Below, piece after piece: positions 16,606 to 59,710 of a DNA stretch of 64,000 nucleotides (positions are counted from its first letter, which is position 1; each line of letters opens with the position of its first letter). Under the pieces are notes generated by a model. It searched no databases, had not been told where the DNA came from, and saw nothing but the letters and a program-made list of their open reading frames with translations. A program made the translations under genes and the position numbers. Source of the DNA: a virus; IMG/VR virus record IMGVR_UViG_3300046453_000026, positions 1 through 64,000 of that record; one strand, 5' to 3'.

Positions 16606-16992
16606 TTACGGCGTTTGAGGGACGTCTGTTTCAACGTCCTCCCAGTCTTCTTCTTTTGGTCCTGCCTGTTTCGCTGGCGGTTTCGCGTCGTACATATACG
16701 ATAATTTGGCATCCCTCTCGTTAACCTCTTTGTCCCACTCTTCGTACTCAGGGTCTGCGAACTCTTCCGCCTTCTTGTCCCGTAGCTTACGATCTAGCTC
16801 TAAGTGGGCGTACTCAAGGTCTACCTGTTCGTCGGTCATCGCGAGGAGGCGCGGGTCGGTGGGCGGAATCCCGTTATATACGTGCTTCCGAAGTATCCAC
16901 AGTTTCCGCTCCTTCGGCACCTTCACTATCAGGTGCAGATGTGTTTCGAAAGTCCTGCCGGAATGCGTCCTCCCACTCGTTGTACTTACCAA
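16606..16992 (-). CDS. Tail assembly chaperone, frameshifted extension (gpT-like)
   Basis: This open frame of up to 128 residues has no good start: the first strong ribosome site in its frame is missing, and its first third overlaps the upstream chaperone gene by 119 bp in another frame. Its useful part, from about VKVPKERK through DKEVNERDAKLSYMYDAK, is a charged helical segment. The layout matches the G/GT pair of long tails, in which ribosomes shift frame near the end of the first gene to make a fusion chaperone for the tape measure. Here the shift needed is +1 or -2. The gene ends 48 bp before the tape measure gene. Confidence 0.68.
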   Translation of the reverse strand: MVSTTSGRTHSGRTFETHLHLIVKVPKERKLWILRKHVYNGIPPTDPRLLAMTDEQVDLEYAHLELDRKLRDKKAEEFADPEYEEWDKEVNERDAKLSYMYDAKPPAKQAGPKEEDWEDVETDVPQTP

Positions 16993-17359
16993 GGATATGA
17001 TAGAGGACTTCCGGCTCGGTCACCGCCTGTACGTTCAGCAGCCACTCTGGGCGCTTGGCGATAACTACTTCCAAGGTAGACATGGTGTGCGCCATAAATT
17101 TAATAGACTCGTCTACAAGGTTAAGGTCCTTAACGCCCGCTGCGCGGAATACTTCAGACTTGATAGCACCCATCCGCATGAAGTCGGACATAGTAGGCTT
17201 CTTAAATTCGACCCACCCGCTGTATTTGTTGCCTTCCAAAGAGGTGAACTCAATATGCACGCCTTTGGTGAGGTCGCCACCTTGTCGCACTTGTCCGGCC
17301 AGCGCCATGGCCTTCCGAACCTCGTCCATCTGCGCTTCGTTACCTAGTGGTTGAGACAT
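16874..17359 (-). CDS. Tail assembly chaperone (gpG / XkdN-like)
   Basis: The 162-residue protein starts MSQPLGNEAQMDEVRKAM with AAGGAGCTGGG upstream; a start 18 codons earlier has no such site. It contains EFTSLEGNKYSGWVEFKKPT and a helical middle, consistent with XkdN/gpG chaperones that coat the tape measure before tube assembly. Its acidic C-terminus (PDSEGAEGAETVDTSEA) overlaps the downstream frame where a programmed frameshift is expected. It lies between the tube gene and the tape measure gene. Confidence 0.75.
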   Translation of the reverse strand: MSQPLGNEAQMDEVRKAMALAGQVRQGGDLTKGVHIEFTSLEGNKYSGWVEFKKPTMSDFMRMGAIKSEVFRAAGVKDLNLVDESIKFMAHTMSTLEVVIAKRPEWLLNVQAVTEPEVLYHILGKYNEWEDAFRQDFRNTSAPDSEGAEGAETVDTSEARI

Positions 17360-17408
17360 ATTACCCAGCTCCTTCGAATATTGTCGATTTTGGTCGCCAC
17401 CATTATAG

Positions 17409-17440
17409 AACAACCCCTACCGACTTGGGTAGGGGTTGTT
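17409..17440 (-). terminator. Strong hairpin between tube and chaperone genes
   Basis: A perfect 13-bp stem, AACAACCCCTACC with GGTAGGGGTTGTT around a 6-nt loop, lies between the tube stop (17456) and the chaperone start (17359). The U tail in the minus direction is short (UUGUUCU). It probably attenuates transcription so that tube protein is made in excess over chaperone, or protects the 3' end of the tube mRNA. A CTTCGGAAG copy lies just upstream. Confidence 0.65.
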
Positions 17441-17455
17441 TCGTACTTCGGAAGC

Positions 17456-17890
17456 TTACACTGTTTCTGCTACACCGGAGTCCGAAGACAGGTACAGCCA
17501 AGTAGCATTTTCTCCAGACATCGCGTTTGCACGGAAGTCTTCGGAAGTCTCTTGCAGTGTGCATCCACGGTACACGATGACGATGTCTCCTGTGAATCGG
17601 TCGGTGACCTCGATGTCGATGACATTCAGATTAAGAATGCCTGCACCATACGCTGCCAGCCCGATCTCTACAAGAGACTTCTTACGGATGCGGAACTTTT
17701 CGAGCGATACCGTTCCTTCAAAGCGAAGGGGTACCGATTCCTGCGGCAGAATGGAGCCGATTTCGTACTGGTTCTCAGTACCGAAGGACCGACGTCCACT
17801 GATAGACTGTGCGCGGCCTACTTCGATACCGTCAATTTTCAGTCGGATCGTGTGCCCAGCGTGTGCTGGCTGGTCTTTTACGATAGACAT
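17456..17890 (-). CDS. Tail tube protein (XkdM-like)
   Basis: The 144-residue protein matches the size (about 145) and pattern of PBSX XkdM-type tube subunits: an N-terminal segment, then beta strands with TIRLKIDGIEVGRAQSIS, a LPQESVPLRFEG loop region and a C-terminal strand YRGCTLQETSEDF. It stacks in hexameric rings inside the sheath. It lies directly after the sheath gene and carries a good AAAGGGGAG site. A strong hairpin follows its stop codon. Confidence 0.85.
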   Translation of the reverse strand: MSIVKDQPAHAGHTIRLKIDGIEVGRAQSISGRRSFGTENQYEIGSILPQESVPLRFEGTVSLEKFRIRKKSLVEIGLAAYGAGILNLNVIDIEVTDRFTGDIVIVYRGCTLQETSEDFRANAMSGENATWLYLSSDSGVAETV

Positions 17891-17946
17891 GGCTTATTCT
17901 CCCCTTTACGTATGTTTTAGACTTCCGAAGCCGAAGCTCCACGCCC

Positions 17947-23086: not shown

Positions 23087-23121
23087 AAAAAGGAAGGGCT
23101 TGGACTAGCCCATGCCCTTCC
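23087..23121 (-). terminator. Intrinsic terminator after the major capsid gene
   Basis: On the minus strand GGAAGGGC pairs with GCCCTTCC across a 14-nt loop and is followed by UUUUUGC (A tract 23087-23091). It lies 19 bp after the capsid stop. Partial read-through would reduce expression of the tail genes relative to the capsid protein. Confidence 0.88.
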
Positions 23122-23140
23122 TCGTTGTTGTATGGCCGTC

Positions 23141-24619
23141 TTATCGAGCGACTGGCTTCACAGTACCAAAGCTTGTTTGGCCGTAGACCGGACCGAACAG
23201 TTCGCGGTTGCTGTTGAGTCCCAGCGTTCCGATGTTCTTGATTACGACGATGCGGCGCGGGTTGTACACCTGCACCATGCCGTACATCAGGATCATGAAG
23301 CGCTCGGAGGCGGAGATACGAGCCAGCGGGAGCTTCATCAGCGGAGCGAGCTGCTTGAACGTCAGAACGTTCTCGCTGTCGTTGTCGATCAGCACAGCCG
23401 TGTGGGTGCCCGGAATATCGAAGTTGCGGTCAGGGATCACTTGGGATGCACCAGCCACAGCCTTGATTTCGAAAGCGTACAGCGCGTTTGCCGGGTTATT
23501 TGTGTAACCACGGTACACACGATACGTCAGGGCAACAGGGTCAGACACTACGCTGTTAATCTTCAGATCAACGCGTTGGCCTGCTGTAGTGGTCTGTCCA
23601 GCACCACCTACATACAGTGGTGCAGATTCGCCTGCACTGTTCTTCGCGGTTACGAAGTAGTGGTACGTACCTGCTGCCAGTTTGGAGGTAGCGTCTGCTG
23701 CTGCCGCAGTTGGAGCTGTTGCATCGCCTGTAGGGACAGCAGGTGCTCCTTTTGCCGACACAGCGGGCGGCGCAGTCTCAGGCTTCAGGAACGTGTTGTT
23801 CATGAAGTTGATGTCTGCGGTGTTCGCGGAGTAACCACGGACAGGTGCACCCAGTGTAGCAGAGTCACCAACTCCGATACGTTGACGTCCGGCAGGCCCA
23901 GTCAGGAGCTTCGAGAAGTCCTTGTGCACTTGGTTCGTCAAGTGGAGGTCAAGGGATTGACCGCCATAGTTATCAGCGATGATAGTTGCGATATCTTCCA
24001 GCGTATTCTCGTCCAGAGGGAGACCCTGCATGTCGATAATGTGCTGGTTGGCGTAGTTTTTGCCGGAAACGAAGTTCCGTACCTGCGCGATAACGCCGTC
24101 GAATGCCAGAGGGTCCAGTGCGGAATCCGCAAAGTACAATTGACGTTCGAGCTGCGTCAGGAGCCACAGTGTGCCTGCTTGGGTCTGCTGCGCGACGATA
24201 TCACCGATAGTGTTACGCACGAGCGTAGCCGGATGGGTGATGACGCGAGTAGTACCCAAGAACTTCACGTACTGGGCTTGACGCACGAAGTTGGAATCTT
24301 CTTCGCCCGGCAGACCGCCTTCGGTGAAGAACGGGGAAGACTTACCACCATAGCTGTCCAGCACGTTGAATTCTTCAACGGTGTTGAACGCTTGTTTCTT
24401 GCCGATGCTGTTCCAGAACTTGATGTGTTTCTGCTGTGCAGTAACAACCTTCAGTGTTCCTTCCAGCGATTGCGGGCGAATCGCGGACATGTCCGCATAT
24501 GCGCCATTGCCGTATGCTTCGCCGTCTTGGCCTGTGCCAAGGGCTTTATTCAGCTCTTCAAGCTCTGATAGAGAGTTCTGTCCGAAGCCGATCTCTCCCA
24601 CGTCTGCTACTTGTACCAT
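23141..24619 (-). CDS. Major capsid protein with Ig-like insertion
   Basis: The 492-residue protein is the major head subunit. The N-terminal arm (LKVVTAQQKHIKFWNSIGKK), the middle with DLHLTNQVHKDFSKLL and the C-terminal MYGMVQVYNPRRIVVIKNIG match large-phage HK97-fold capsid proteins. Between about residues 285 and 395 there is an inserted Ala/Thr-rich domain with AGTYHYFVTAKNSAGESAP and VALTYRVYRGY, the classic fibronectin-III/Ig-like strand pattern, probably displayed on the capsid surface. It lies after the protease-scaffold gene, and no copy of the 9-mer interrupts it. AAAGGGGG precedes the ATG and a terminator follows. Confidence 0.92.
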   Translation of the reverse strand: MVQVADVGEIGFGQNSLSELEELNKALGTGQDGEAYGNGAYADMSAIRPQSLEGTLKVVTAQQKHIKFWNSIGKKQAFNTVEEFNVLDSYGGKSSPFFTEGGLPGEEDSNFVRQAQYVKFLGTTRVITHPATLVRNTIGDIVAQQTQAGTLWLLTQLERQLYFADSALDPLAFDGVIAQVRNFVSGKNYANQHIIDMQGLPLDENTLEDIATIIADNYGGQSLDLHLTNQVHKDFSKLLTGPAGRQRIGVGDSATLGAPVRGYSANTADINFMNNTFLKPETAPPAVSAKGAPAVPTGDATAPTAAAADATSKLAAGTYHYFVTAKNSAGESAPLYVGGAGQTTTAGQRVDLKINSVVSDPVALTYRVYRGYTNNPANALYAFEIKAVAGASQVIPDRNFDIPGTHTAVLIDNDSENVLTFKQLAPLMKLPLARISASERFMILMYGMVQVYNPRRIVVIKNIGTLGLNSNRELFGPVYGQTSFGTVKPVAR

Positions 24620-24649: not shown

Positions 24650-26272
24650 CTATTCAAGCCCAAGCTCTTGTTTAATGTCCGACGTAAGTCGAAGTTGCTC
24701 GAAAGGTGTACCACCCTCGTAGCGCATGATCTCCGTACCGATCCCCATGTTTCCGGCTTCAAAGGACTTGTTCAGTACTTCCATGACGCGGCTGCGCGTC
24801 AGCGGTGCACCGTTACCCTTGTCCATGGACTTGGTGATGGTTTGGACCTCACGCTGGTTGACGACGCCTTTACGACCCACTGGGGTGCTCAGGACTGTAT
24901 CCAAGGACTTCCGAAGCTCTTCGTTATCGGAAGATAGCTCGTCCATCCGGGATGCCATAGTCTGTACGAGTCCGCCAAGCGACGTCAGCGCATTCACCAC
25001 TGCTCCCTGCTGCTTCGCAACATGGCTCAGAGACTTCTGAAGGCCGTCGACGTTAAAGCCGAACTCTTCAGCGATGTCCTGCAAGAAACCGGACACGTCG
25101 AACGCTTGCTGTTGCGTCTTACCCAGTGACTTTGCGAAATCCGTGGTTAGCGCCTTCTTCAAGTCGCCCTTTTCCTCGTCTTCCTCTTCGTCCTCGCCCT
25201 TTTCCTCGTCTTGGTTGTCGTCGTCGCCATCTTCCTCGTCTTGGTTGTCGTCGTCTTGGTCATCAGCTCCGTGCGCCTTGATTAGCTCTTCCTCTTCCTC
25301 GTCGGCAGTCTCCAATGACTTCCGAAGTTCTTCAAGGTCGGTATCAAGCTGCACTGCTGCTTTTGCCTGTGCTGCTGTTGGCATGTTGTCACCTCCAATT
25401 TTCCCGAATAGGGATTTTAGGACCGGGTACCTCTCGGAGATGTACGCCGCGTACTGACACGCTTCGTCGTAGTCCAGCCCGCCGTGGCGACCGTACAGGT
25501 ATGCACCCATTCCAGCCTCCGCTGCCGTGCCTACTACGAAAGACTTCCGAAGGTCCTTGTCCTTCATATGGTCGTGGACAAACGAACGAAAGAGCTTAAT
25601 CCATCTCTCCTGCTCGTCTTCGGTGCTCTTCGCACCTCCCTCGACCGACTGAGGCATGACTTCCGCCATCCCTGCTGTGTCGAGCGACTTGTCGACCATG
25701 TTGATCTCCACTTCGTGGTCTTTAGAGAAGGACTTTGCCAGCTCTGCCCACGTCATGGTGTTCACCGGGTTCATCGTAAGCACGACGTTCCGAAGTACAG
25801 ACTTCAGAATCTTCCCAGTCTTACGGTCTCGCTCCTTGACGCCTCCCTCGATAGACCAGCCCATAGTCCGCTTGGTGTGAGACTTTTTCAGGTCTTCGAT
25901 GGCCGTTACCGCTTGCTTTGCCAGCTCGCGATTCTGGAATAGCCGTCCTTTCACGTAAATACCGTTTACGGACTTCTGAAGCGTAGGGTGGGTGAACTGT
26001 CCGACCCTAACTTCCAGCGGTTCCCCGATGAACTGGTTGGGGCTATTGCCGTGCTCGTACTTAATCCATCCTTTCGTCAGGAAGTACGAGCAGTCCATGC
26101 CTTCCGGCGTGATGGAGTCTTCTTCTTCGTCCTTTACGTCCGAAGTCATGACCCCTTGGACTATCCAGTCACCGTTCGCGTCCACTTCTACCGACTTCAG
26201 AAGGTCAGTGTCTTCGATAGGCACCCACACGCGATAGGAGTCCGGTAGGACATTTACTGGTGTGTCAGCCAC
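24650..26272 (-). CDS. Prohead protease fused to scaffold (XkdF-like serine protease)
   Basis: I start at the GTG at 26272 (GGGAAGGTGAG upstream); the longer frame would run through the structured RNA. The 540-residue product has an XkdF-type serine protease domain at residues 1-185 with KYEHGN (His74) and MGWSIEGG (Ser140). A helical region follows, then a run of Asp/Glu with DDNQDEE repeats at about 322-375 and a long coiled coil at about 400-480, as in scaffold proteins. It would drive prohead assembly and then cleave itself and packaged proteins. The sequence is full of Leu-x-Lys-Ser peptides (LLKS, LKKS, LQKS, LRKS), partly encoded by the 9-mer. Confidence 0.87.
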   Translation of the reverse strand: MADTPVNVLPDSYRVWVPIEDTDLLKSVEVDANGDWIVQGVMTSDVKDEEEDSITPEGMDCSYFLTKGWIKYEHGNSPNQFIGEPLEVRVGQFTHPTLQKSVNGIYVKGRLFQNRELAKQAVTAIEDLKKSHTKRTMGWSIEGGVKERDRKTGKILKSVLRNVVLTMNPVNTMTWAELAKSFSKDHEVEINMVDKSLDTAGMAEVMPQSVEGGAKSTEDEQERWIKLFRSFVHDHMKDKDLRKSFVVGTAAEAGMGAYLYGRHGGLDYDEACQYAAYISERYPVLKSLFGKIGGDNMPTAAQAKAAVQLDTDLEELRKSLETADEEEEELIKAHGADDQDDDNQDEEDGDDDNQDEEKGEDEEEDEEKGDLKKALTTDFAKSLGKTQQQAFDVSGFLQDIAEEFGFNVDGLQKSLSHVAKQQGAVVNALTSLGGLVQTMASRMDELSSDNEELRKSLDTVLSTPVGRKGVVNQREVQTITKSMDKGNGAPLTRSRVMEVLNKSFEAGNMGIGTEIMRYEGGTPFEQLRLTSDIKQELGLE

Positions 26273-26295: not shown

Positions 26296-26465
26296 AAAAA
26301 GAACGAGGACAGCACAAGACACTCGATCTATTCGCTAACCCCGGCTTGCGCCGCGCAGTAAGCTTTCGGTCGATGCGCACAGTAGCGGGCGAGCTGGTAG
26401 GTTCCCGCTACTGTGCGTCGGTGTCTTGGGCTGTCCTCGTTCGTGGACTTCGTTGCCCTATTTCA
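26296..26465 (-). ncRNA. Candidate structured RNA of about 170 nt with its own promoter and terminator
   Basis: On the minus strand a near-consensus promoter (26472-26500) is followed by a non-coding unit. A long closing stem pairs 26421-26442 with 26301-26322: 21 of 22 positions pair, with one C-U mismatch. Inside lies a perfect 14-bp hairpin (26376-26389 with 26404-26417, 14-nt loop) and a weaker arm with GCUU/AAGC. A run of five U residues follows the stem (A tract 26296-26300), as in an intrinsic terminator. A rival 5' hairpin (26428-26458, GGGC/GCCC and GUCC/GGAC) would use bases of the closing stem, so a switch is possible. The protease-scaffold gene begins 24 nt downstream, so it is either a free-standing RNA or a leader attenuator. 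Confidence 0.8.
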
Positions 26466-26471
26466 GCCTGA

Positions 26472-26500
26472 ATAATACACTGGCTTCCGAAGGGCGTCAA
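26472..26500 (-). promoter_or_regulatory. Sigma-A-type promoter for the structured RNA and head operon
   Basis: TTGACG (26495-26500) is spaced 17 bp from TATTAT (26472-26477) on the minus strand, with an A/T-rich AAAAATAGTA just upstream. The 9-mer CTTCGGAAG (26484-26492) begins two bases after the -35. The start of transcription should be near 26465, a few bases downstream of the stop codon of the small zinc-ribbon gene. Confidence 0.85.
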
Positions 26501-26502
26501 TA

Positions 26503-26709
26503 CTATTTTTGCGCTTTTACGACAAACTTCGGGCGGGGTACTGCGGATGGTTCACCGTTCATCTCAACGGGGATCGGGTTGGGTGTTTTGCACGAGGGGC
26601 ATAGCGCCGTTGCGCCACTAGGCGTGAATAGAACCATCCGGGTCCGTAGCTTCCATCCCTCCGGCGTCTTGTCCATTAGTATCCTGTTGCACTCCGAACA
26701 GTGTAGCAT
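26503..26709 (-). CDS. Small zinc-ribbon protein
   Basis: The 68-residue protein begins MLHCSECNRIL and later has ALCPSCKTPNP, giving CxxC...CxxC, a zinc ribbon like those of Com-type or nucleic-acid binding small phage proteins. A GGAGGGAG site precedes the ATG. It lies between the giant polyvalent gene and the head operon promoter and may regulate expression or be an assembly cofactor. The zinc binding is inferred from Cys spacing. Confidence 0.72.
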   Translation of the reverse strand: MLHCSECNRILMDKTPEGWKLRTRMVLFTPSGATALCPSCKTPNPIPVEMNGEPSAVPRPKFVVKAQK

Positions 26710-27035: not shown

Positions 27036-30000
27036 TCACAACAGTATCACAAGTTTTAACGCTTTGTCAGCACTTGCTGCCGGGAGCTTCGGAAGCTTGG
27101 TAACCACCCGTTCTGCCACTTTCGGCTTACGTGGTGCGGCAGTAACTCCGCGAGGTTTCCGGCGCTGATCGTTACGGCTTGTAAATCCTCGGTGCCCTCT
27201 TCCGATGGTGCCTTGCGTCTCGCCCAGCTTCGGATTCTTCTCGGCGCTGCGGGTGCTACCTGTCAGGTCCTCAACGCCCTTGATCTTAGCGTCCTGCGCG
27301 TTGAACATGAAATCCTCAACCGTGTTTGGCACGTGCATGGACTCCACCCGGACGCTGTTTGCTCTGCCGATCTGTGCGTGAGTCTTGGCAGAGTCGGAAC
27401 GTCGTACTCGCGCGGTGAACTGCGCCATCTTCTGCGGGTTCCAGTCTTGGTCGTAGTGGAACATGATGTGTGCATTACCGAAGTCGACGCCTTCTTTACC
27501 CGCCGGGGACACCGTAGTCGCCCACAGACTACCTTGATTCTTAGCATAGTCGTGCTTGTTGCCTCGGAAGCCTACTTTCGTATCCTCCCGGTCGGTGGCC
27601 TCTCCGGTGAACTGCCCCTGCCCAAGGTCTTTGTAGCCCTGCTTGTGCAGGTCGGCAAAGATCGGGTGCGACTTCCTAACCTCTTTCAGTACGTTGTCGA
27701 TGATGTCCGTACCGAATGTGGTGTAACTCGACTTCACGACGACCTTTGGAACCATAGGTACCTGACCGCGCTTGATGCGGTCCTTGTTCTCATCCTGCAA
27801 GCCGTCGAGGTACTTGTGGATGCGGTCCTGTAGGTACTGCGCTTTTGGGTTCTCCTTGTGAAGTGGCGGCAGCAGTTTAGGACTGCCGTCCCCGTTCTTC
27901 GCGTAGCCTCCCTCACCGTCGCTTTCGTAGTACCGTTTGAACCCGTCCTTATCGACGACGTAGTGCTCGCCCTCTTTCAGGCCCTGTGCTGCCTTCTTAC
28001 CAGCTTCGGAAGTAGCCGCAGCGCTTTGCGCATCGGTCGCGCCAGAGTCCAGTGCATCGCCGCCACCAACAAACATCTTATGAGACAGTGGTGCGTTCAG
28101 GAATTTCGCCAGCTTCTGCATAGCTGTCAGGTAGTTGCCGCCGTCTTTCTTACCTTGGTCAATCCCGGTGGCTGCGGCGGTCGCTAGTTCTGCCTTCTTG
28201 GATTCAGGCAGGTACTTCGCTTCCAGCTCCTTGTACTTATCGTACATACGCTGCACGGACGGGCTGACGTTCTTCGGTGTGGTCGTGGTTACCGTGTACT
28301 TCTCGCCGTTCTTGGCGTTGGTAACCTCCTTCTGCTCGGACTCGAAGTCCGTGATCGAGTGCTTCGTGCCGTAGTAGTTGTTCGTGTTGTGGTCCCGGCT
28401 GCGGTCGACCATATTCCCCATGAAGTCGGTCTTCGGTGATGGCTTATCCACTTCGGAAGCCCCTTCGAGATGCGGGAAGTGAATCTTCGACCCGTCGTTG
28501 TACGTCACGTCCTCGCCACCCCGGAACTGAATAACGTTCGCCATGATATCGCCCAGCTTCTCGGACATGGCAGGCTTGATGCCGACGATCTTGCCGTTCT
28601 TATCTTTCTGCATGTAGTTGTCCGTGAACTCCTTCATGCTCCCCAGTTCGTGCTTGCCTCCTGTTACGGTGTCAATCAGGGCGTAGGCTTCGCGCGCGTC
28701 GTTCTCCATTGGTGTACCGGACAGGCCCCATACGTTCTTGAACTTGTCGGTGGTCTCCGCCAAGGCAGTACCGCGCTTACCCTTCTGGTTCTTGAAGGCA
28801 TGGACCTCGTCAATCACGATGTTGTCATACATGCCGCTGTTGGCGAAGTGCTCACGGTTCCGCATGAACGTATCGTAGTTGACGATATGGAAGTCATGAT
28901 CTTCGGAAGCATGAGCTGATGTGTTCTTCTTGAAGCTCTTGAAGTCCACCGCTTCCTGCTCATTGCCCGCCTGACCCCACATGCTGCGGCCGCGCTCGTT
29001 CTTGACGCCCTTCAGGCCGGAACCGATGAATAGCGCTGTGCTGTTGGTGTGGGACCCGACTTCCTTACCCCAGTCAGACATGATGCCCTTCGGAGATACG
29101 ATCAGGGTCTTCTTCGGCTTACGCCCTGCTGCCAGCTCTTCTGCCTTGTAGTGCAGTCCGGCCACGACGCCCAGAATGGTCTTCCCGGTGCCCATGCCGT
29201 GCCCGGCGATTGCTCTTCCGCGCTTCCGAAGGTGGGCGGCTCCTTCAAGCTGCGTCCCGTAGAGTCCTTGGCTCGGGTTCATCAGGTAGGAGTGTTCGTT
29301 GAACTGCGCCTTGTAGTGCTTGTCGAATTCCGGGTTGCTCGTCTTGACCGTCGATGGCTGGAACTGATCACGAAGCTCCGGCACGCTCTCCGGTTTGCGG
29401 TCCTTGCGGGCAAAGTGGTCTTTCAGGTACTCCGACGCTTCGTGCGTCAGCGATATGCCTCTGCTGTCCTTGCCAAGGTCTTCACGCAGCTTTTCGAACA
29501 TGGCGGTGGATATGCGAGCTGTCCCGTCATTCAGAACCCGGACGCCTGCGGATTCGACATGCTTCCGCATAGAATCGGGCACGTGTACCTCCAGCTCCTT
29601 GACGTACGAGCTGCTGAACTTCGCCATCAGCTCCTTGCCCGCTTTGGAACGTCCCAGCACCTTCGCCAGCCGCTTGTGCTGCTGGTCAGACAGCTCGATG
29701 TCCTTCTGAAGGTTTCCGTCCTTATCGAACGCTCCTTGATTGACGTTAGCCTTCTGGAGGGCTTGTGTGAACAGGTCCTTGGCGAGGTCTGCCCGGCGCT
29801 GAGATTTTGGGTCTTCTCCCTTGAAGGCCTCCGCGATGTTCATCCGGTGCGCGCCAGATTTTGCTACTTTGACGACAGCGTTCCCGGAATCGGACAGGAT
29901 TCGACCTTCTTCCCTAGCTGCCTTCAGCTCGCCTTTGCCAAACATCCCAATGACATGGCCTTTGCCGTCTGTGACCTTATAGGTGTCGCCCTCAATCGAG

Positions 30001-33000
30001 TGGATTCGACCCTTTCTGTACCCTGCGCCGTCCTTATACATCACCGCGTTGCCTGCTTTCATGGCGACGTCGTTCTGTGTCGTAAAGCGTCGGTCCACCA
30101 GCTTACCGTTTTTAAACAAGGCCTTCACGGGTTCCCCAGTGGTCGGGTCGATACTGCCCTTCGGAACATCGCGGCTGTCAATATAGCGGTAACCGCCATA
30201 CTTGCCTCCGACGACGCGCGGCGCTCCCTTACCGTCGTATTCGAGCTGAATATGGTGACCCAGTGCGTCTCCGATGTGAATATCGCTGCCAAAGTGTGCC
30301 GTAATCCAGCGTCGGTTACCTACTGCGGACTTCAGAAGCTCGTTAAGGTCCGATTCGTTGGAAATAGGCTTACGCTGGTTCAACAAGCGCGCCATCAGAG
30401 GGTCCTTAATGTACCCTTCAGCATCGGTCGAGATATGGTTAACAGTTCCATCCGCCATCTTCTGTGCGAAGGTCTGCATCTTGATCGAGCCGTCACTATC
30501 GCGAGCTTGGTCAACCAGCTTGAACTCTTTGTGCAGCATGGTGTCCTGAAGCCCTGCTTTAGTGTTGGCGCGATGCTTCGCCCATTCGTCGTCTGTGATC
30601 TTCTTCATGAATGGCTTGTCTGCATCGGTGTTGGCAAACTGCGTTAGGGTAGCCTTAAGGTTGGAAGCGTCCTTTCCGGTGTACCCTAGCGCCCGGCCAA
30701 GGTGTCCCCAGTTCGTTAAGTCCTCATGTGCCCCGCCGTCCGGGTCGAAGGCTTCAGTAACAGCACTCGTGTACTTACCGCGCTCTTCGTTACCATCGGC
30801 GTCCTTCTTACGGGAGCCTGCTCCCCCTGTAAAGTCTCCGCCGATCTCCACCAGCATTGTCTTCCCGGTGATCGGGTTGCCAATCATGTACTTACCTTCC
30901 GGCAGCAGGTTCTTCCCTGCTTCCTCACGGGCGCGGCCCATTTCCTTCACGCCAAAAGACTCGGCCAGTGCTTCCATATTCCCGTCGGCTGCTGGGTTCA
31001 TGCTGGCTACATCCTTCAGAAAGCTTCCCATTTTGTCCTTGTTACGGCCAGCTACTGAACCGATACCTGCCAGAACCTCGCGGGCCTTGGCTTCAGCTTC
31101 GGAAGGGTTCTTACCGGATTTATAGGTATCATGATAGGCTTGCAGCGCCTCTTTGACGCCCGGCTTGTTCAAGAAGTGACTTCCAAGATGGGTCCGCTTC
31201 TCGTCCTCTGTCATGCTGTCCAGCTCTTCGCGCTCAGCGTCTGGCAGGTCAGAGTAGACATCCAGCGCTTTATGGGAGTGGTTGTCAAGAAAGTCTTTCA
31301 CATGTCCCCCTACAAGCCTATTGCCGTCCTTCTGCTTCCAGTCAGAACGCATCCGCTCCATTTGCTCGCGGAATGCTTGAACGCCGTGGTCGACCACATG
31401 GCGGTTATCCTCGTTGACGTCCGCATCACGGGTGAACTGAATATCTCCGGCGTCATCGAAGTCAACGCCCCGGTTCTTCTTGGCGTAGCTCGCGCGCTCA
31501 GTAGCGTAGTCAAAAGTACCGTCCTTCTTCCCGGCGTTCTTCTCTTTGGCTGCGATGTGGCTCTTCCATCCCTCACGAGCGGAGGCCTCGCGGCCCTCTT
31601 CGTGAGAAGCCAGCGCTTCCCTCTCATGATGAAACTCCAGCTTGTCCTCCTGCGCACCTGCGTTGTGCTCGTCCCGATGCGCCGCATTCGACGAATCATA
31701 CAGAAGCTCCCCGGTAGTAGAGCTGACAAGCACACGCTTGCCGCCCCACGTAATCCATGCAGAGCCGGGGTTCTTCAGCAGCAGCTCTTCCGACCATGTC
31801 TTACCGCCACCCTTGGATCGGGCGGCGGCGTGCTGTTGTTCAGAGATACTTCCGTACTTCTTCTTGTTGGCCTTCACATACTCGGTTGCCCGGCTGTTAA
31901 CGGCGTGGTTACTCCCGCCTTTATGGGGGAACATGGACTTCCGAAGCTCGTTACGGTGCGCGTTGAACGACTTATACAGGTCGTTGTCCGGCGGCAGCGT
32001 AAGCTCAGTGATGTGCGCCACGACGTCGCCTTCGTCCAGCATGATAAAGCTGCCCACGTACTCGTGTGGCTCCATGGACTTCAGAAGGTCATCCTTGCTA
32101 TCAGCATACAGCGTCCGGGTGTAGGTCTGCTGTAGAACATCGACACCCACACCCCAAGACCGCAGGGACTTCACGAGGTCGTATTCGTAGAAGGCCTTCA
32201 TGATCGAACCAACTACAAGGGACTTCAGCATCCGTAGCTGCTGGATGGCAGGGTGATTCTGCATAACAGCGGCGCTGATCTTCTTCATTGCCCGACCAAG
32301 GGTGTTCTCGACCCATTTCGTGTCCACGTCCGCCCCGTGCTTGTCGTTGAGACGCTGCGCCACTTCGGAAGCCGTCATGCTCGCCTTACTGCCTGTTTCG
32401 GAAGCTTGGGAGTGCTTAATGGTCATTGCCCGGATTTCGTCGTCCGTCAGTCCCATGTCACGCATAGCCTGCGGAAGCGCACCCTTCAGTTCGGCCTGCC
32501 GCTCTTTCTCGATAGCTGCTTCTTCTGGGGAGGCTCCGGTACGCTCAGTTACGCTGTCCTTAATGGACACGGTCTTCCCATCGGCGCTCTCTGCGGCTGC
32601 TTTGTCGATGCTCGTCGTCTTCTGCTGAGCGCTGTAGTTCTTCAGTGCTCGAAGCTTGTCAGATGGGTCCTCATACCGCTTGTTGGTCTGCACCCAGTCG
32701 CCCTTTGCGTCGTCATAATGCGGCGCGCGCACAATCGGGGCGTCCTTGAATGCCTTAGAGTTGGCTTCGAGGTGGTCAGCCAGCTCACCATGCGTAGGTG
32801 CCCGACCAAGCTTCTGCGTCAGCGACTCTTCGTGCTTGCGCATATCTCCGATAGCTCCGCGAATCTCGTGCGGCGCCGGGATGTCGTTCATGAAGTCATA
32901 GATGTCACGGTGCAGCTTCTGCTTCATCCGGGAAATGGTATGAGCTGCGATGGACGTGCCCTTCTCGGGGTTCTGGCTGCCGGACAGGATACTGTGCAGG

Positions 33001-34013
33001 GTCTCATACATAGAGCCGCGCGCTGCCTGAAGCAGATCACCGTATACGCCCTGCTCTTGCTGCACATTAGCGTCCTTGGCGGCTTCCTTCTTGCCCTCTG
33101 CGGAACGGTTTGCCCCTTTATGGCGCTTCAGGATGTGCATCTGTCCCATGACATGAAGTCCCCGGGACTCGGCCATCTTCTTCACAACATGGCGGGCCAG
33201 CTTGTCGTTAGCCTGCGTGATCGCCCCGGCCACGTTCTTGATGTCCTCCGCATTGCGCTTGTTGACGGGCAGCGCCATAATAGCCTGCACCTTAGGCGTG
33301 TTCCACATCGCATCAATGTGAGTAGCTTCAGCGCTCGGTGTGGACTCCAGCTTGTTCAGCTCGTCCGCTGCCTTGCTCTGCTCGTTAGCCTTCGGGTCCT
33401 CCTGCTGCCGCTTGCGGTTCTGCGGGATGGTGCCCTTGACCTCCTTGGTCTTACTGCTCTCGTCGTGCGTGGTATCGCGTTTCAGCACAGGCGCTTCCAA
33501 AGCCTGCGTCCGCTTACTCTTACGACCTTCGGAAGCTTGCACAATGTTGTCGATTGCCGTCGATGCGGTTGCTGTCGATTTCGACGGCTTCCGGGTGTCG
33601 GATGCTGTCTTGCCGGATGCTGTCGAAACGGTAGGGTCTGTCAAATTTTGGCCCCGACCCGTGCCTCCCGTGGCATTGGTCTTGTTGGCCTCTTTAGTAG
33701 CCTTGCCCTTCGCAGCGGCGTTCGCTGCACGCTTAGCTTTGGCGTCGGCCTTTTTCTTGGCCTCTACGACCTTGGCGTGGTCGTTGGCGTGCATCATGTT
33801 GGCGCGCTTAACCTTACCGATCTTGCCGTCCTCGAAGCGCACCTTATGGTGGGTATCTCCTGTCTCCTGCACGATCCCTGTTTTGCCCGTGCTTGTTACA
33901 ACCTTGCTACCGCCCTTGATAGCTGTGAACTTACCGTACGTATCACGCGGGTGCATCGAATCCCTCCATGACTTCTGAAGGTCACCCCCGATGTATAGCA
34001 CAACATCTCCCAT
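27036..34013 (-). CDS. Giant polyvalent protein: sigma-70-like segment plus SNF2-type helicase
   Basis: This 2325-residue protein is the largest in the window. The N-terminus has HPRDTYGKFT, a short motif seen in head-associated phage proteins. Residues about 250-590 follow the order of a sigma-70 factor: a region-2-like stretch (DLLQAARGSMYETLHSIL near 323), a region-3-like LGRAPTHGELADHL (near 400), a PEEAAIEKERQAEL linker (near 495) and a region-4-like helix-turn-helix starting TASEVAQRLNDKHG (near 545). Residues about 1560-2250 are a SNF2-family ATPase: GHGMGTGKT (near 1603), VIDEVHAFKN (near 1733), GLSGTPMEN (near 1766) and QFTARVRRSD (near 2196). It lies between the MuF-type head gene and the protease, where capsid-loaded polyvalent proteins are found. 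Injection with the DNA is inference. Confidence 0.85.
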   Translation of the reverse strand: MGDVVLYIGGDLQKSWRDSMHPRDTYGKFTAIKGGSKVVTSTGKTGIVQETGDTHHKVRFEDGKIGKVKRANMMHANDHAKVVEAKKKADAKAKRAANAAAKGKATKEANKTNATGGTGRGQNLTDPTVSTASGKTASDTRKPSKSTATASTAIDNIVQASEGRKSKRTQALEAPVLKRDTTHDESSKTKEVKGTIPQNRKRQQEDPKANEQSKAADELNKLESTPSAEATHIDAMWNTPKVQAIMALPVNKRNAEDIKNVAGAITQANDKLARHVVKKMAESRGLHVMGQMHILKRHKGANRSAEGKKEAAKDANVQQEQGVYGDLLQAARGSMYETLHSILSGSQNPEKGTSIAAHTISRMKQKLHRDIYDFMNDIPAPHEIRGAIGDMRKHEESLTQKLGRAPTHGELADHLEANSKAFKDAPIVRAPHYDDAKGDWVQTNKRYEDPSDKLRALKNYSAQQKTTSIDKAAAESADGKTVSIKDSVTERTGASPEEAAIEKERQAELKGALPQAMRDMGLTDDEIRAMTIKHSQASETGSKASMTASEVAQRLNDKHGADVDTKWVENTLGRAMKKISAAVMQNHPAIQQLRMLKSLVVGSIMKAFYEYDLVKSLRSWGVGVDVLQQTYTRTLYADSKDDLLKSMEPHEYVGSFIMLDEGDVVAHITELTLPPDNDLYKSFNAHRNELRKSMFPHKGGSNHAVNSRATEYVKANKKKYGSISEQQHAAARSKGGGKTWSEELLLKNPGSAWITWGGKRVLVSSTTGELLYDSSNAAHRDEHNAGAQEDKLEFHHEREALASHEEGREASAREGWKSHIAAKEKNAGKKDGTFDYATERASYAKKNRGVDFDDAGDIQFTRDADVNEDNRHVVDHGVQAFREQMERMRSDWKQKDGNRLVGGHVKDFLDNHSHKALDVYSDLPDAEREELDSMTEDEKRTHLGSHFLNKPGVKEALQAYHDTYKSGKNPSEAEAKAREVLAGIGSVAGRNKDKMGSFLKDVASMNPAADGNMEALAESFGVKEMGRAREEAGKNLLPEGKYMIGNPITGKTMLVEIGGDFTGGAGSRKKDADGNEERGKYTSAVTEAFDPDGGAHEDLTNWGHLGRALGYTGKDASNLKATLTQFANTDADKPFMKKITDDEWAKHRANTKAGLQDTMLHKEFKLVDQARDSDGSIKMQTFAQKMADGTVNHISTDAEGYIKDPLMARLLNQRKPISNESDLNELLKSAVGNRRWITAHFGSDIHIGDALGHHIQLEYDGKGAPRVVGGKYGGYRYIDSRDVPKGSIDPTTGEPVKALFKNGKLVDRRFTTQNDVAMKAGNAVMYKDGAGYRKGRIHSIEGDTYKVTDGKGHVIGMFGKGELKAAREEGRILSDSGNAVVKVAKSGAHRMNIAEAFKGEDPKSQRRADLAKDLFTQALQKANVNQGAFDKDGNLQKDIELSDQQHKRLAKVLGRSKAGKELMAKFSSSYVKELEVHVPDSMRKHVESAGVRVLNDGTARISTAMFEKLREDLGKDSRGISLTHEASEYLKDHFARKDRKPESVPELRDQFQPSTVKTSNPEFDKHYKAQFNEHSYLMNPSQGLYGTQLEGAAHLRKRGRAIAGHGMGTGKTILGVVAGLHYKAEELAAGRKPKKTLIVSPKGIMSDWGKEVGSHTNSTALFIGSGLKGVKNERGRSMWGQAGNEQEAVDFKSFKKNTSAHASEDHDFHIVNYDTFMRNREHFANSGMYDNIVIDEVHAFKNQKGKRGTALAETTDKFKNVWGLSGTPMENDAREAYALIDTVTGGKHELGSMKEFTDNYMQKDKNGKIVGIKPAMSEKLGDIMANVIQFRGGEDVTYNDGSKIHFPHLEGASEVDKPSPKTDFMGNMVDRSRDHNTNNYYGTKHSITDFESEQKEVTNAKNGEKYTVTTTTPKNVSPSVQRMYDKYKELEAKYLPESKKAELATAAATGIDQGKKDGGNYLTAMQKLAKFLNAPLSHKMFVGGGDALDSGATDAQSAAATSEAGKKAAQGLKEGEHYVVDKDGFKRYYESDGEGGYAKNGDGSPKLLPPLHKENPKAQYLQDRIHKYLDGLQDENKDRIKRGQVPMVPKVVVKSSYTTFGTDIIDNVLKEVRKSHPIFADLHKQGYKDLGQGQFTGEATDREDTKVGFRGNKHDYAKNQGSLWATTVSPAGKEGVDFGNAHIMFHYDQDWNPQKMAQFTARVRRSDSAKTHAQIGRANSVRVESMHVPNTVEDFMFNAQDAKIKGVEDLTGSTRSAEKNPKLGETQGTIGRGHRGFTSRNDQRRKPRGVTAAPRKPKVAERVVTKLPKLPAASADKALKLVILL

Positions 34014-34284: not shown

Positions 34285-37200
34285 CTACTCTCGCAAGGTC
34301 TCTCCGTCATTAAATATCTTCCGGTCCTCGTCCGGGTTCGGAATAGGGACGATGACGCCGACCCCGAAAGGTACAGGCTGGCGGCTCACCAGCTCTCCGT
34401 GTTCGTCCTCTTCAATCCACGGAGGCTTCGGAAGTGCGATGACGTAGGCAGCAGTCTCGTCGTACAGGTCGTACTGGGAAATGGCGTAGCCCAGCGCCTG
34501 CTCAAACAAGTTGGTAAAGCAGGTCTCCTGTGCTTCCTTGTCGTCATCATTACCCTTGCCCTTAGTTTGCACGTATCCCTTGGCATTGATGGCGTCCAGC
34601 TCTCGCTGTCCGATGCCCCGGTACATCACGTTGGTGTCACCGCCGAAGGGGTCGTTACCTGCCGGGTCTGGGATGATGGACTTCCACAGCTCCCGGTACT
34701 GGGCAATGGCCTGCTGCCGCTCGGCTTCATCCTTGCCCTTGACGATGCAAGGGACGTGAGTGTAGTCGAGGCCTTTGGAGGCTATCCAGCGGTGGTGACC
34801 ATCGTGGACATCGTTGTCGTACCCGATCTCGACAGGCTTCAGGCCGACGCCCTGCCGCATCTTCTCCATGTTCTCGCGCACCTTGTCCCAGTTGGTCGCT
34901 CCCTCGGTTTGGTAGATCATTTGCAGGCGGTTCACTGGGATGTAGATAACTTCCGAAGGGTCGGTCTCATGGTCGATATCGTAGGCGCTGCGCTCGGTAA
35001 TGCCAGACTCGATCCCATCCGGGTCCCGGCGGGCTTGTAGGGCTTGGTTTCGGGCATTATAGTTGTTCACCGCCTGATCTCCACGCTTCCGAAGCTCAGT
35101 AGCATTGAAGAACCTCAATGGTTCACCCTTTACCCGTTCTATATCCCGGATAAAGTCTAGGACCTGACCCTTTTGAAGTTCCATGTCCAGCGCCTTCTTC
35201 AGGGCCTTGGTCTTAGTGATGTGCTTCAGCAGCGCATCCATGGCGGCGTGCATGTGCTTGCGCTCGTCACCTACTGGGAACGGCGCGTCGAGGTTTCCCT
35301 TGGAAGTCTTCGTGTCCCACACAAGGTAGTTGTTTTTACGCTTCTTGGCGGTCAGTTTATCCTCGATCATGGACTCGAACACCCGGGCAAACATCTCGCA
35401 TCCTTGGGCGTAGTACGGCTTCCCGCCTCCGTCGAACTCTTGCATCCGGGTGTAGTACTCACTCTTACCTGTCGGAACCTGAATCTCGCCCTTGTACTCG
35501 GCCCCGGTCTTACGTTTCATCTCGTAGGCCACCATGTGGGGCAGGGCATTAAGCTCTTTCGTGTGGTTACGCTGCGCAATCTTAATACGCTTCTCCCGAT
35601 CCTTATCGGATTTCACGAACGAGCTGTTCATCACACGGTTGACCGCGCGGTCGTACTCGTTGTCAATCTTGTCCTTCCAGCGGGTGTACACTGCTTCAGG
35701 GCTATCCCCTGCCTCTATTTCCCGGCGCATACTCGGGTAGTAGGAGCCTGCGGGTCTAGCGGTGGAGTCTATCGAGACTTTCGTCACTCCACCGGGCTGT
35801 CCCGGTGCAGGCTTGCGAACGGCTTCCATCAGGTCACCGTATAGCCTCTTCAGCTCGGGGTCCCCATCGCCCATCGACTGCGGCGCATCGGATGCCAAGG
35901 ATAGCGATCCAGCGCTACCATGCGAGTAGGCATACATGATATTGTCCATCGCATGGCCCCACTCATGCGCGAGGGACCCCGCGCCGCCGAACTTGGTCAT
36001 GTTGATGACCTTACGGTCCGGCTCATAGTGGGCTACTGCTCCAGCTTTACCACGAGCACCGAACGCTATCGACAGCCGCCCATTCAGGGATACGTCCTTG
36101 TCCTCCACTCCGATGATATCAGCGAGGTCACTGAAGGCTTCGGAAGCACGCTTCAGGTGGTACAGGCCAGACGAATCGTCCACCCAGTTACCAAACTCCA
36201 CGCCCTTCATGTTGAACTGCTTGACCATGTCCTCCGGCTTCTTGACGGTCGTTTCCTTCCCACCTGTTCGCTGGTGCTCACTGACGGCCATGCGCTCCCA
36301 CTTCTTCCTGCCTGCTCCCCGTGTGGAGGAACGGTCCTTCTCGTCGGCCCCATCTGCTGCGGCTTCGGAAGGCTTGAAGTAAGTGTCCCAGTTCAGCTTC
36401 TTGTCGACCACTGTCTGGAAGGTGCGCACGCGAGAGTTGCCGTTTGTGAAGAAGTTATTCAGCTTGTCTCCCATAGCCTCGAAGTCCATAACCTTCTTGG
36501 CGGCTTCGGCCTTGCTGATACGCTCGTTGTAGTAATCGTGGTTGAAGTAGGAGGCTGAACCGCTGTTTGCTACCTTATGCTTCAGCTCCGCCAGCCCGTC
36601 ACCCTCTCTTGCAATGGTGCCCAGCTCAGACACGGACTTCCGAATGTTGTCCCACGTCTTAATAGGGGCGAGCACCCGGTGAAGCTGCCGGATACCGTTC
36701 AGGTAGGCCGCACGATCCTCGGGCTTGTCACCCGCAGGCTTCGGTGCTACCCGGTCGTATATAAGCTGCTTCAACATAGCAGCGTTAATCTCCACACCGT
36801 TCTTCTGCTCCTGCTCGAAGTCTACAGGTGGCAGGATGTTCTTCTTCACACACATCTTCTGTGCCACTTCCGGCGCAACCTTCTCCAGCGCTTCAAGGTT
36901 CTGCATCGTCGGCTCGGTAGTAAAGTTCTTTTGGAACGTGTCCTTGCGAGCGCCGCCCACCTTGTCGCCTACGTCGTAGGCCAGCTCTCGGTTAGCTTGG
37001 GCTTCGGAACGAATGTCGGCTACCTTGCCCGGCGCTTTCGCTTGTTTGCCCCCTGCCGGAGCCGCTTTTGGTGACTTCGGCTTCGCGGCTGGTTTGCGGT
37101 CTGGTTTGATGTCCACAGGTACTGTGAGTGTGGCGGGCTGCTTACCTCGAACAGGCTTCTTTCCAGCTCCGCCCACTGTTCCTGAGTCGATTTCTTTTCC

Positions 37201-37704
37201 AGCGGCGGGCTTTCGCTTAGCCGCAGGTTTGCCAGCGCTGCTACCAGCCTCGCCATCGACGGCCTTCCCAGCCCCACGACTATTACCCTTTGCCGCTCCT
37301 CCACTGGCTGCGCTCCCCTTCTTTGCCGCTACTCGTTTTTGCTTGGCTGCGGCCTTGGCTTCAGCGTCAACGTTGGCCTGATGCTTCTGAAGCTGCGGTT
37401 TGGTGGCCTTCTTCGCGCCACCACTAACTGCCGGAACCGATCCTGCCAGTACCTTGCCGTCCTTGACGTAAATATGGTGACCACTCATGGTCACCCATTG
37501 CCCACCCGGAGGCAGTTCCTTATGAACCGCCTTGGCTTGGGTCTTCGTTATCTTCGTCGTCTTCTTTGTCGTACTGGCGGTACCACTCCCCGCAGATTTT
37601 ACCTTCGTCTTCGTCGTCGGTGGTTTGGTCGTCGTGCTTTTCAGTGCCTTCCGAAGTTCCTCCGGGTTGTTGATGATGTTCAGGCTGCTCGCGTCCAGTA
37701 GCAT
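34285..37704 (-). CDS. Polyvalent protein: LPD1-type zincin, ParB-like and possible ART domains
   Basis: The ATG at 37704 has AAGGGGGAG upstream. The 1139-residue product starts with a disordered Lys/Ala/Thr-rich region of about 240 residues that includes a small WVTMSGHHIYVKDGK motif. Near residues 500-600 lies the LPD1-type block of large polyvalent proteins: GVEFGNWVDDSSG, LSIAFGARGKAGAVAHYEPD and the zincin motif SLAHEWGHAMD (HEWGH near 580). Near 930-1010 is a ParB-like domain (VHDGHHRWIASKGL near 969). The last 115 residues (VMYRGIGQRELDAINAKGY, then CFTNLFEQALGYA) resemble an ADP-ribosyltransferase fold. Its place beside the MuF-type gene suggests loading into the head and delivery into the host (inference). 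Confidence 0.83.
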   Translation of the reverse strand: MLLDASSLNIINNPEELRKALKSTTTKPPTTKTKVKSAGSGTASTTKKTTKITKTQAKAVHKELPPGGQWVTMSGHHIYVKDGKVLAGSVPAVSGGAKKATKPQLQKHQANVDAEAKAAAKQKRVAAKKGSAASGGAAKGNSRGAGKAVDGEAGSSAGKPAAKRKPAAGKEIDSGTVGGAGKKPVRGKQPATLTVPVDIKPDRKPAAKPKSPKAAPAGGKQAKAPGKVADIRSEAQANRELAYDVGDKVGGARKDTFQKNFTTEPTMQNLEALEKVAPEVAQKMCVKKNILPPVDFEQEQKNGVEINAAMLKQLIYDRVAPKPAGDKPEDRAAYLNGIRQLHRVLAPIKTWDNIRKSVSELGTIAREGDGLAELKHKVANSGSASYFNHDYYNERISKAEAAKKVMDFEAMGDKLNNFFTNGNSRVRTFQTVVDKKLNWDTYFKPSEAAADGADEKDRSSTRGAGRKKWERMAVSEHQRTGGKETTVKKPEDMVKQFNMKGVEFGNWVDDSSGLYHLKRASEAFSDLADIIGVEDKDVSLNGRLSIAFGARGKAGAVAHYEPDRKVINMTKFGGAGSLAHEWGHAMDNIMYAYSHGSAGSLSLASDAPQSMGDGDPELKRLYGDLMEAVRKPAPGQPGGVTKVSIDSTARPAGSYYPSMRREIEAGDSPEAVYTRWKDKIDNEYDRAVNRVMNSSFVKSDKDREKRIKIAQRNHTKELNALPHMVAYEMKRKTGAEYKGEIQVPTGKSEYYTRMQEFDGGGKPYYAQGCEMFARVFESMIEDKLTAKKRKNNYLVWDTKTSKGNLDAPFPVGDERKHMHAAMDALLKHITKTKALKKALDMELQKGQVLDFIRDIERVKGEPLRFFNATELRKRGDQAVNNYNARNQALQARRDPDGIESGITERSAYDIDHETDPSEVIYIPVNRLQMIYQTEGATNWDKVRENMEKMRQGVGLKPVEIGYDNDVHDGHHRWIASKGLDYTHVPCIVKGKDEAERQQAIAQYRELWKSIIPDPAGNDPFGGDTNVMYRGIGQRELDAINAKGYVQTKGKGNDDDKEAQETCFTNLFEQALGYAISQYDLYDETAAYVIALPKPPWIEEDEHGELVSRQPVPFGVGVIVPIPNPDEDRKIFNDGETLRE

Positions 37705-37981
37705 CGGTTTGCTCCCCCTTCTCATGCAAGATGGCAGGGACTGCGTTGTCCGTGTAGTAAGCATTGACATGACCTTCGCCCACGTCCACCTTCACCAGCT
37801 TTAGTAGCCCCTTGCGCACCAGCTTCTTTAGTCCGTTCTTGCTGATCATATCCGACTCTGTAAGCACGATTCCTGCGACAGGCATCCCGGTGGATACCAC
37901 CATGCCGTCAATGGCGGTCAGAACGAAGCCCTCGCGGGATTGTCTGAATTGCAGCGTGCCCTCGGTCTGTGGGTAATTCAT
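37520..37981 (-). CDS. Small head-region protein with acidic tail overlapping the next gene
   Basis: The 153-residue protein has a beta-rich N-terminal domain (LQFRQSREGFVLTAIDGMVV, then IVLTESDMISKNGLKKLVRKG) that resembles the short domain of YqbF-type proteins, and a very acidic, Gln/Asp/Glu-rich tail. Its last 61 codons (37520-37704) overlap the start of the 1139-residue gene in another frame, far more than the 4-20 bp overlaps elsewhere. AAAGGAGCTGG precedes its ATG. Either both proteins are real, or a frameshift joins them. Confidence 0.65.
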   Translation of the reverse strand: MNYPQTEGTLQFRQSREGFVLTAIDGMVVSTGMPVAGIVLTESDMISKNGLKKLVRKGLLKLVKVDVGEGHVNAYYTDNAVPAILHEKGEQTDATGREQPEHHQQPGGTSEGTEKHDDQTTDDEDEGKICGEWYRQYDKEDDEDNEDPSQGGS

Positions 37982-38001
37982 AGCTACCAGCTCCTTTATA
38001 A

Positions 38002-38505: not shown

Positions 38506-38543
38506 TGTCCTTCATCCCCTTAATTGGTATTTGATGGCCCCAT

Positions 38544-38571
38544 GCTATACTAGGCCTTCCGAAGCCGTCAA
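38544..38571 (-). promoter_or_regulatory. Sigma-A-type promoter with CTTCGGAAG in the spacer
   Basis: TTGACG (38566-38571) is followed after 16 bp by TATAGC (38544-38549) on the minus strand. The 9-mer (38556-38564) begins one base after the -35, the same register as in the HU and structured-RNA promoters. It overlaps the last codons of nothing: it starts 4 bp beyond the MuF gene stop and drives the genes from 38505 downward. Confidence 0.8.
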
Positions 38572-43682: not shown

Positions 43683-43705
43683 GCTTACCAGCTCCTTTTA
43701 TTTGG

Positions 43706-44802: not shown

Positions 44803-44842
44803 ATTTACCAGCTCCTTTGCCTTTATGCCCGCATCATACAAC

Positions 44843-45091: not shown

Positions 45092-45104
45092 GCCTTCCAG
45101 CTCC

Positions 45105-59652: not shown

Positions 59653-59710
59653 TATTTCCAGCTCCTTTGATTTTGTTTGATGGGCAGGTTGCTACCCTGC
59701 CCAGTCTTCG

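Follow-up and report, generated by a model that had tools for sequence, protein, structure and literature searches.

What is the function of a long, strongly folded non-coding RNA placed directly ahead of the head genes of a phage? The locus belongs to IMG/VR virus record IMGVR_UViG_3300046453_000026 (64.7 kb), most of which is covered by the 64,000-nt stretch analyzed here, hereafter the window. By gene content the phage is a myovirus, with an SPO1-type TerL (phrog_675), a portal, a head protease-scaffold, a capsid protein and a tail sheath, and nearly all genes of the window lie on the minus strand. On the same strand, the RNA locus sits between the gene of a 68-aa Zn-ribbon protein and the head protease gene, whose ribosome-binding site (RBS) lacks the GAGCUGG motif discussed below. 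The features that frame it are as follows.

26472 to 26500, minus strand: promoter TTGACG-17-TATTAT of the RNA and of the head protease and capsid genes (10/12 matches)
24650 to 26272, minus strand: head maturation protease and scaffold gene, the first gene after the RNA
23141 to 24619, minus strand: major capsid protein gene
23087 to 23123, minus strand: intrinsic terminator after the capsid gene, occurring in RNA-less relatives too

The promoter had already been proposed in an earlier, sequence-only reading of this locus and is found as described, at 26500..26472 with 10/12 matches; all relatives show a promoter-like sequence at the matching place. The terminator is strong, lies directly 3' of the capsid gene in nearly all relatives checked, and carries a recurring GGGCUAG motif in the RNA-bearing phages. 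Upstream of the RNA, the Zn-ribbon gene (26503-26709, minus strand) encodes four cysteines and a conserved RTRMxLF, precedes the head protease even in distant phages, and its product shows a weak resemblance to Mu Com (hhalign E = 9e-6, probability 83%); comparison with Pfam and NCBIfam assigned it to no family. The head gene region also encodes a giant 2325-aa protein with an SNF2-type helicase domain (27036-34013, minus strand) and a 1161-aa protein with a ParB-like nuclease domain (34285-37770, minus strand).

The structural elements claimed in the sequence-only reading, namely a 22-nt closing stem, a perfect 14-bp hairpin, a third arm and a terminal U tract, are all present in the window.

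26421 to 26442, minus strand: closing stem, 5' strand (inverted repeat)
26301 to 26322, minus strand: closing stem, 3' strand (inverted repeat)
26376 to 26417, minus strand: central arm, a 14-bp stem with a 14-nt loop
26323 to 26374, minus strand: third arm (AUCGA...UCGA), in 6/12 members only
26296 to 26300, minus strand: U tract after the closing stem, real and not conserved in relatives

The two strands of the closing stem form a 22-nt inverted repeat with 95% complementarity (26301-26322 / 26421-26442), and the stem of the central arm is perfect over 14 bp (26376-26389 / 26404-26417). The segment 26470..26285 of the minus strand folds at -88.4 kcal/mol, compared to a shuffled mean of -58.9 (z = -7.05; 0/200 shuffles as good), which, together with the closing-stem covariation in relatives, upholds the earlier claim of selection for RNA structure. 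The complementary strand folds too (z = -6.4). We assign the RNA to the minus strand because of the promoter direction, the covariance-model scores (79.9 bits, versus 35.1 on the complementary strand) and the closing-stem variation, in which a hand alignment shows G-U wobbles (6) and just a single C-A mismatch. The protease reading frame can be extended through the RNA from a GTG start, but relatives do not keep this extension: the RNA is non-coding.

Comparative sequence analysis indicates that this phage-encoded RNA is a new family. A protease search combined with DNA patterns yielded 12 distinct members in IMG/VR contigs, which are possibly incomplete. Every member precedes the same head protease gene, 23-36 nt from its start, and this spot is kept where the upstream genes differ (members L012 and L014); each contig bears one copy, including contigs of 94-106 kb. 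Stem sequences differ almost wholly between groups, yet pairing is kept. The covariation among homologs on which the sequence-only reading had staked its structure is indeed observed: in the closing stem, 92.5% of cells are paired, 14 of the 20 pairs show double changes and none of 500 shuffles is as good. The covariation score is 0.451, versus at most 0.136 when the strands are slid; a 10-sequence version was also run, and the hand alignment gives 198/210 paired cells and 19/21 pairs. The closing helix has 20-29 pairs in 12/12 members, with a central 1x1 mismatch in 11 of them; being about two turns of near-perfect double strand, it is by its length a putative RNase III substrate.

Outside these contigs the RNA was not found. 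Rfam 15 gave no match at the gathering score in the window and eight relatives, and nothing at E up to 10, the best subthreshold match (E = 4.2) lying on the other strand. A BLASTN search of 50,697 phage records with the RNA returned chance matches only, no cultured phage record carrying it, and a second viral scan with the loop pattern returned 78 stretches with no new member beyond L065/L134. Among genome contigs, one Paenibacillus prophage has a related protease without the RNA at that place. In SPO1-like phages the RNA is likewise absent between the portal and protease genes, the gap of less than 80 nt leaving no room for it.

Upstream of the closing stem lies a second conserved element, which gives rise to an alternative fold.

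26445 to 26458, minus strand: conserved 14-nt 5' box GGGCAACGAAGUCC (family consensus GGGCAACRAARUCC)
26428 to 26458, minus strand: alternative (nascent) 5' hairpin, in which the box (GGGC/GUCC) and the 5' strand of the closing stem (GGAC-A-GCCC) pair

Since GGAC-A-GCCC is the conserved middle of that 5' strand, the hairpin and the closing stem are mutually exclusive. This competing hairpin, also noted from the sequence alone, is real, its pairing being kept in 93.8% of cells across relatives with a covariation much weaker than that of the closing stem. In L010, L014 and L060, concerted changes affect the box (G to A), the stem (C to U) and the 3' strand (G to A), and in L012 the hairpin as a whole gives way to CUAUAC/GUAUAG and ACC/GGU with the 6x1 loop retained, which would occur by chance at about 0.7%. 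In minimum-energy folds of growing transcripts, the 5' hairpin appears at about 44 nt and persists until synthesis of the 3' strand. A hairpin of the box with itself (GGGC/GUCC) was rejected, as it is not kept in L010, L014 or L012. Shine-Dalgarno (SD) accessibility is lower in several members. A riboswitch-like leader, in which the freed 3' strand would sequester the protease SD, was also rejected, since the native pairing is not above chance and no better than shuffled or swapped pairings.

Our main finding concerns the loop of the central arm.

26391 to 26399, minus strand: loop segment UACCAGCUC, complementary to the extended RBS GAGCUGGUA

While the sequence of the arm stem changes completely from group to group, the loop core CCAGCUC is identical and unpaired in 12/12 members, in most of them within UACCAGCUC. 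This loop is the reverse complement of an extended SD sequence, AAAGGAGCUGGUAAnnAUG (matching part, GAGCUGGUA), which is frequent before the RNA-bearing phages' own genes. The complementarity had been missed by the sequence-only reading. RBS calls in the following counts are heuristic.

In the RNA-bearing contigs, CTG follows RGGAG at 33/77 (G004), 24/98 (G006), 11/97, 11/87, 13/118, 8/73, 6/25 and 4/55 of the SD-led starts; the corresponding values for RNA-less relatives are 0/76, 3/77, 2/67 and 0/44. CTG is the commonest trimer at this place in the window and in six of the seven larger other RNA-bearing contigs, the exception being G008. CUGGUA is the top hexamer after GGAG (39/854 starts), whereas it does not reach the top list for the 421 RNA-less starts. 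GAGCUGG occupies RBS positions in 34 cases in G004, where 3.3 are expected, and in 29 cases in G006, where 8.1 are expected. The share of its sites at such positions is 112/362 in RNA-bearing versus 2/43 in RNA-less phages (p = 1e-4), motif counts which are not independent, since the phages are related.

The same conclusion can be approached from the RNA. When all its 8-mers are scanned against the RBS windows, a sharp peak appears at the loop, which matches 21 RBSs in G006 (mean elsewhere, 0.32), 20 in G004 (0.06) and 11 in G007 (0.14). In the latter, the L008 loop contains the generic anti-SD CUCC and its matches are therefore less specific, 11/421 RNA-less RBSs matching it as well. The loop peak drops to 6 in G001, where the UCCUC-containing 3' strand reaches 5, and is minimal in G002 and G003 (2 each). 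Scrambling the loop in G006 gave a mean of 0.67, with one scramble as high as the real loop (maximum of 23 versus 18). L012 keeps the loop core, yet no RBS match of at least 8 nt is found in its 80-kb contig. With that exception, a conserved unpaired segment of the RNA is complementary to translation initiation regions beyond chance. Changes in loop and RBS also go together: the L010/L014 loop UUCGCCAGCUC, with CG where others have UA, matches over 11 nt the RBS GAGCUGGCGAA of the same phages, and the flanking C after CUGG is found in 4/10 versus 7/79 cases (p = 0.019).

Which genes would be read by this loop? The predicted target RBSs in the window are listed below.

37985 to 37993, minus strand: GAGCUGGUA, RBS of a 153-aa gene, matching the window loop over 10 nt
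43686 to 43694, minus strand: GAGCUGGUA, RBS of a 128-aa gene
44806 to 44814, minus strand: GAGCUGGUA, RBS of a 113-aa gene
45095 to 45103, minus strand: GAGCUGGAA, RBS of a 67-aa gene (7-nt match)
59656 to 59664, minus strand: GAGCUGGAA, RBS of a 206-aa gene (7-nt match)
17363 to 17371, minus strand: GAGCUGGGU, RBS of the tail assembly chaperone gene (7-nt match)

Across the genomes, motif-bearing genes include those of DNA polymerase A (3 genomes), a Cas4-type exonuclease (4) and dUTPase (3), together with ThyA, ThyX, an actin-like protein and a DNA methylase, one ortholog of each being identified by profile and the others by N-terminal similarity. Most motif sites lie outside the head-tail region; a few late genes have the motif too, namely that of the tail assembly chaperone and the gene after the capsid gene. 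Plus-strand open reading frames in the tail region (16706-17920) are probably spurious; relatives carry minus-strand tail genes there, among them that of a tail assembly chaperone, whose start lies at 17359.

Since the conserved loop is complementary to an RBS motif found before many phage genes, the RNA probably lowers their translation. We therefore favor, with a probability of roughly 0.6, the reading that it acts as a late-made antisense repressor in trans of the motif-marked genes and is made as the 5' leader of the head transcript. Among the three options offered by the sequence-only reading, a regulatory RNA thus fits best, in preference to a packaging RNA or a terminating leader. A transcript starting, presumably late, ahead of the protease-scaffold and capsid genes would yield the RNA as its 5' leader. 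The 5' box would pair first with the nascent 5' strand and be displaced once the 3' strand is made, which may delay activation. Cleavage of the two-turn closing helix by RNase III or another RNase specific for double strands could then perhaps release the RNA from the mRNA. The freed loop would pair with the SD and spacer of the motif-bearing mRNAs and block ribosome binding, so that translation of replication, nucleotide-metabolism and accessory genes would fall, and the head genes, whose RBS lacks the motif, would stay translated. Repression, rather than activation, is assumed because the pairing position covers the SD.

Taken further, AAAGGAGCUGGUAAnnAUG may mark a regulon of up to about 30 genes that a single capsid-leader antisense RNA would silence as a whole, an RNA-based early-to-late translation switch to which we give even odds. 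If so, making the capsid message would itself repress the replication proteins, a simple and easily tested coupling of virion assembly to the shutdown of early functions, and the loop/motif pair could yield a small orthogonal part for translation control. However, several findings speak against the antisense reading: the L012 lineage has no target set, G002 and G003 have few long matches, and the constant spacing from the protease gene, to which the RNA is strictly linked, fits a cis-acting leader as well. The motif could also be an RBS preference of the host or the phage, unrelated to the RNA.

A purely cis-acting 5' leader of the head mRNA would set protease and capsid levels, by a long helix near the RBS that stabilizes the message, by an RNase III processing site or by binding of a phage protein, and the loop-RBS match would be incidental. 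The single copy always found 23-36 nt before the protease start, even with different upstream genes, the compact transcription unit formed by a strong promoter of its own and the terminator after the capsid gene, and the closing helix of every member agree with such a role. It leaves unexplained, however, why the conserved loop exactly complements the commonest extended SD of the same phages. Moreover, the sequestration of the protease SD that it might involve is not above chance, and the neighboring Zn-ribbon gene is absent from L012's contigs, including that of 80 kb, and is therefore not an obligate partner of the RNA. We consider this explanation rather unlikely. Attenuation, with the mutually exclusive 5' hairpin as antiterminator, would make use of a conserved element and of the T-rich stretch that follows the closing stem in the window and, offset, in L008. 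Nevertheless, a usable U tract is missing from the other 10/12 members, and the stem lies 23-36 nt from the start codon. Since the U tract is not conserved, the RNA is not a terminator; the pairing of the freed 3' strand with the SD is not significant either, and the earlier suggestion of a leader that terminates unless switched appears highly improbable.

The φ29 pRNA has a long terminal helix with a branched center, and the size, closed long helix and multi-arm center of the RNA resemble it in outline, near the head genes. This likeness had led the sequence-only reading to suggest a packaging RNA, which seems to us barely credible. The phage is a SPO1-type myovirus rather than a small protein-primed podovirus with a φ29-type packaging ATPase, its ordinary SPO1-type large terminase and portal are encoded 14-20 kb upstream, and the RNA is linked to the protease gene, not to a packaging ATPase. 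In addition, the third arm is absent in 6/12 members, so that this second arm is dispensable, and only one loop is conserved, leaving no conserved loop-loop pair to form a ring. A processive antitermination leader would act in the nascent RNA, letting the polymerase read through the capsid terminator into the tail genes. Directly after a late promoter, and with a strong terminator about 3.2 kb downstream, the RNA presents a linear box and then a conserved-loop hairpin, a layout like the boxA/boxB of nut sites. It is also, like the HK022 putRNA, a structured RNA directly following a phage promoter. However, the putRNA is about 70 nt long and consists of two separate stem-loops (PMC9378689), unlike the RNA described here, which has a closing helix and does not share the put layout. 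The capsid terminator is equally present in RNA-less relatives, and few other terminator-like sites occur downstream, which makes antitermination quite improbable. Pairing of the loop with the capsid-gene terminator was examined and rejected, RNA-less control phages pairing as well or better.

As an antisense repressor, the RNA would stand outside known RNA families and act like known repressors of phage mRNAs and like SD-covering bacterial small RNAs. Trans-acting bacterial RNAs with SD-pairing loops include RNAIII of Staphylococcus aureus and the C-rich-motif RNAs of Firmicutes. Like these, the phage RNA combines a hairpin-loop anti-SD, several predicted targets and a long double strand suited to RNase III; unlike them, it is phage encoded, its putative targets are the phage's own genes, and its match also covers CUGGUA, a dedicated spacer motif beyond the SD. 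Homology to them was not found. In phage T4, about 30 mRNAs are subject to competition between RegA and ribosomes, and RegB cleaves early mRNAs at the GGAG of their SD (PMC3014915). The phage RNA is likewise predicted to act on the translation initiation regions of a set of phage mRNAs, including those for DNA polymerase and nucleotide metabolism. Whereas these phage-wide repressors are proteins, here an RNA made from the head operon leader would recognize a dedicated extended SD by base pairing. Phage small RNAs such as OOP, sar, PreS, VpdS and 24B_1 base-pair with phage or host mRNAs, and in the examples given by a recent review, each of those with phage targets regulates a single mRNA or a small number of them (cII, ant, d_ant) (PMC12197685). 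Unlike these examples, the motif described here is common to tens of RBSs in the RNA-bearing phages.

The promoter of the RNA has a further peculiarity in its spacer.

26484 to 26492, no strand assigned: CTTCSGAAG palindrome between -35 and -10, exact in 10/12 relatives

The palindrome, degenerate in L012 and L016, is likely an operator. CTTCSGAAG occurs in 99 copies in the 64 kb (e.g., at 26484, 27011 and 38556), versus 2.2 expected, and 86 of the copies are inside genes. It is iterated likewise in RNA-bearing relatives and absent from the RNA-less relatives tested. At 38542-38571 (minus strand), a second promoter-like site has TTGACG followed by CTTCGGAAG in the spacer, like the promoter of the RNA, and TTGACG sites with a spacer palindrome are possibly a phage promoter class in which the palindrome would serve as operator.
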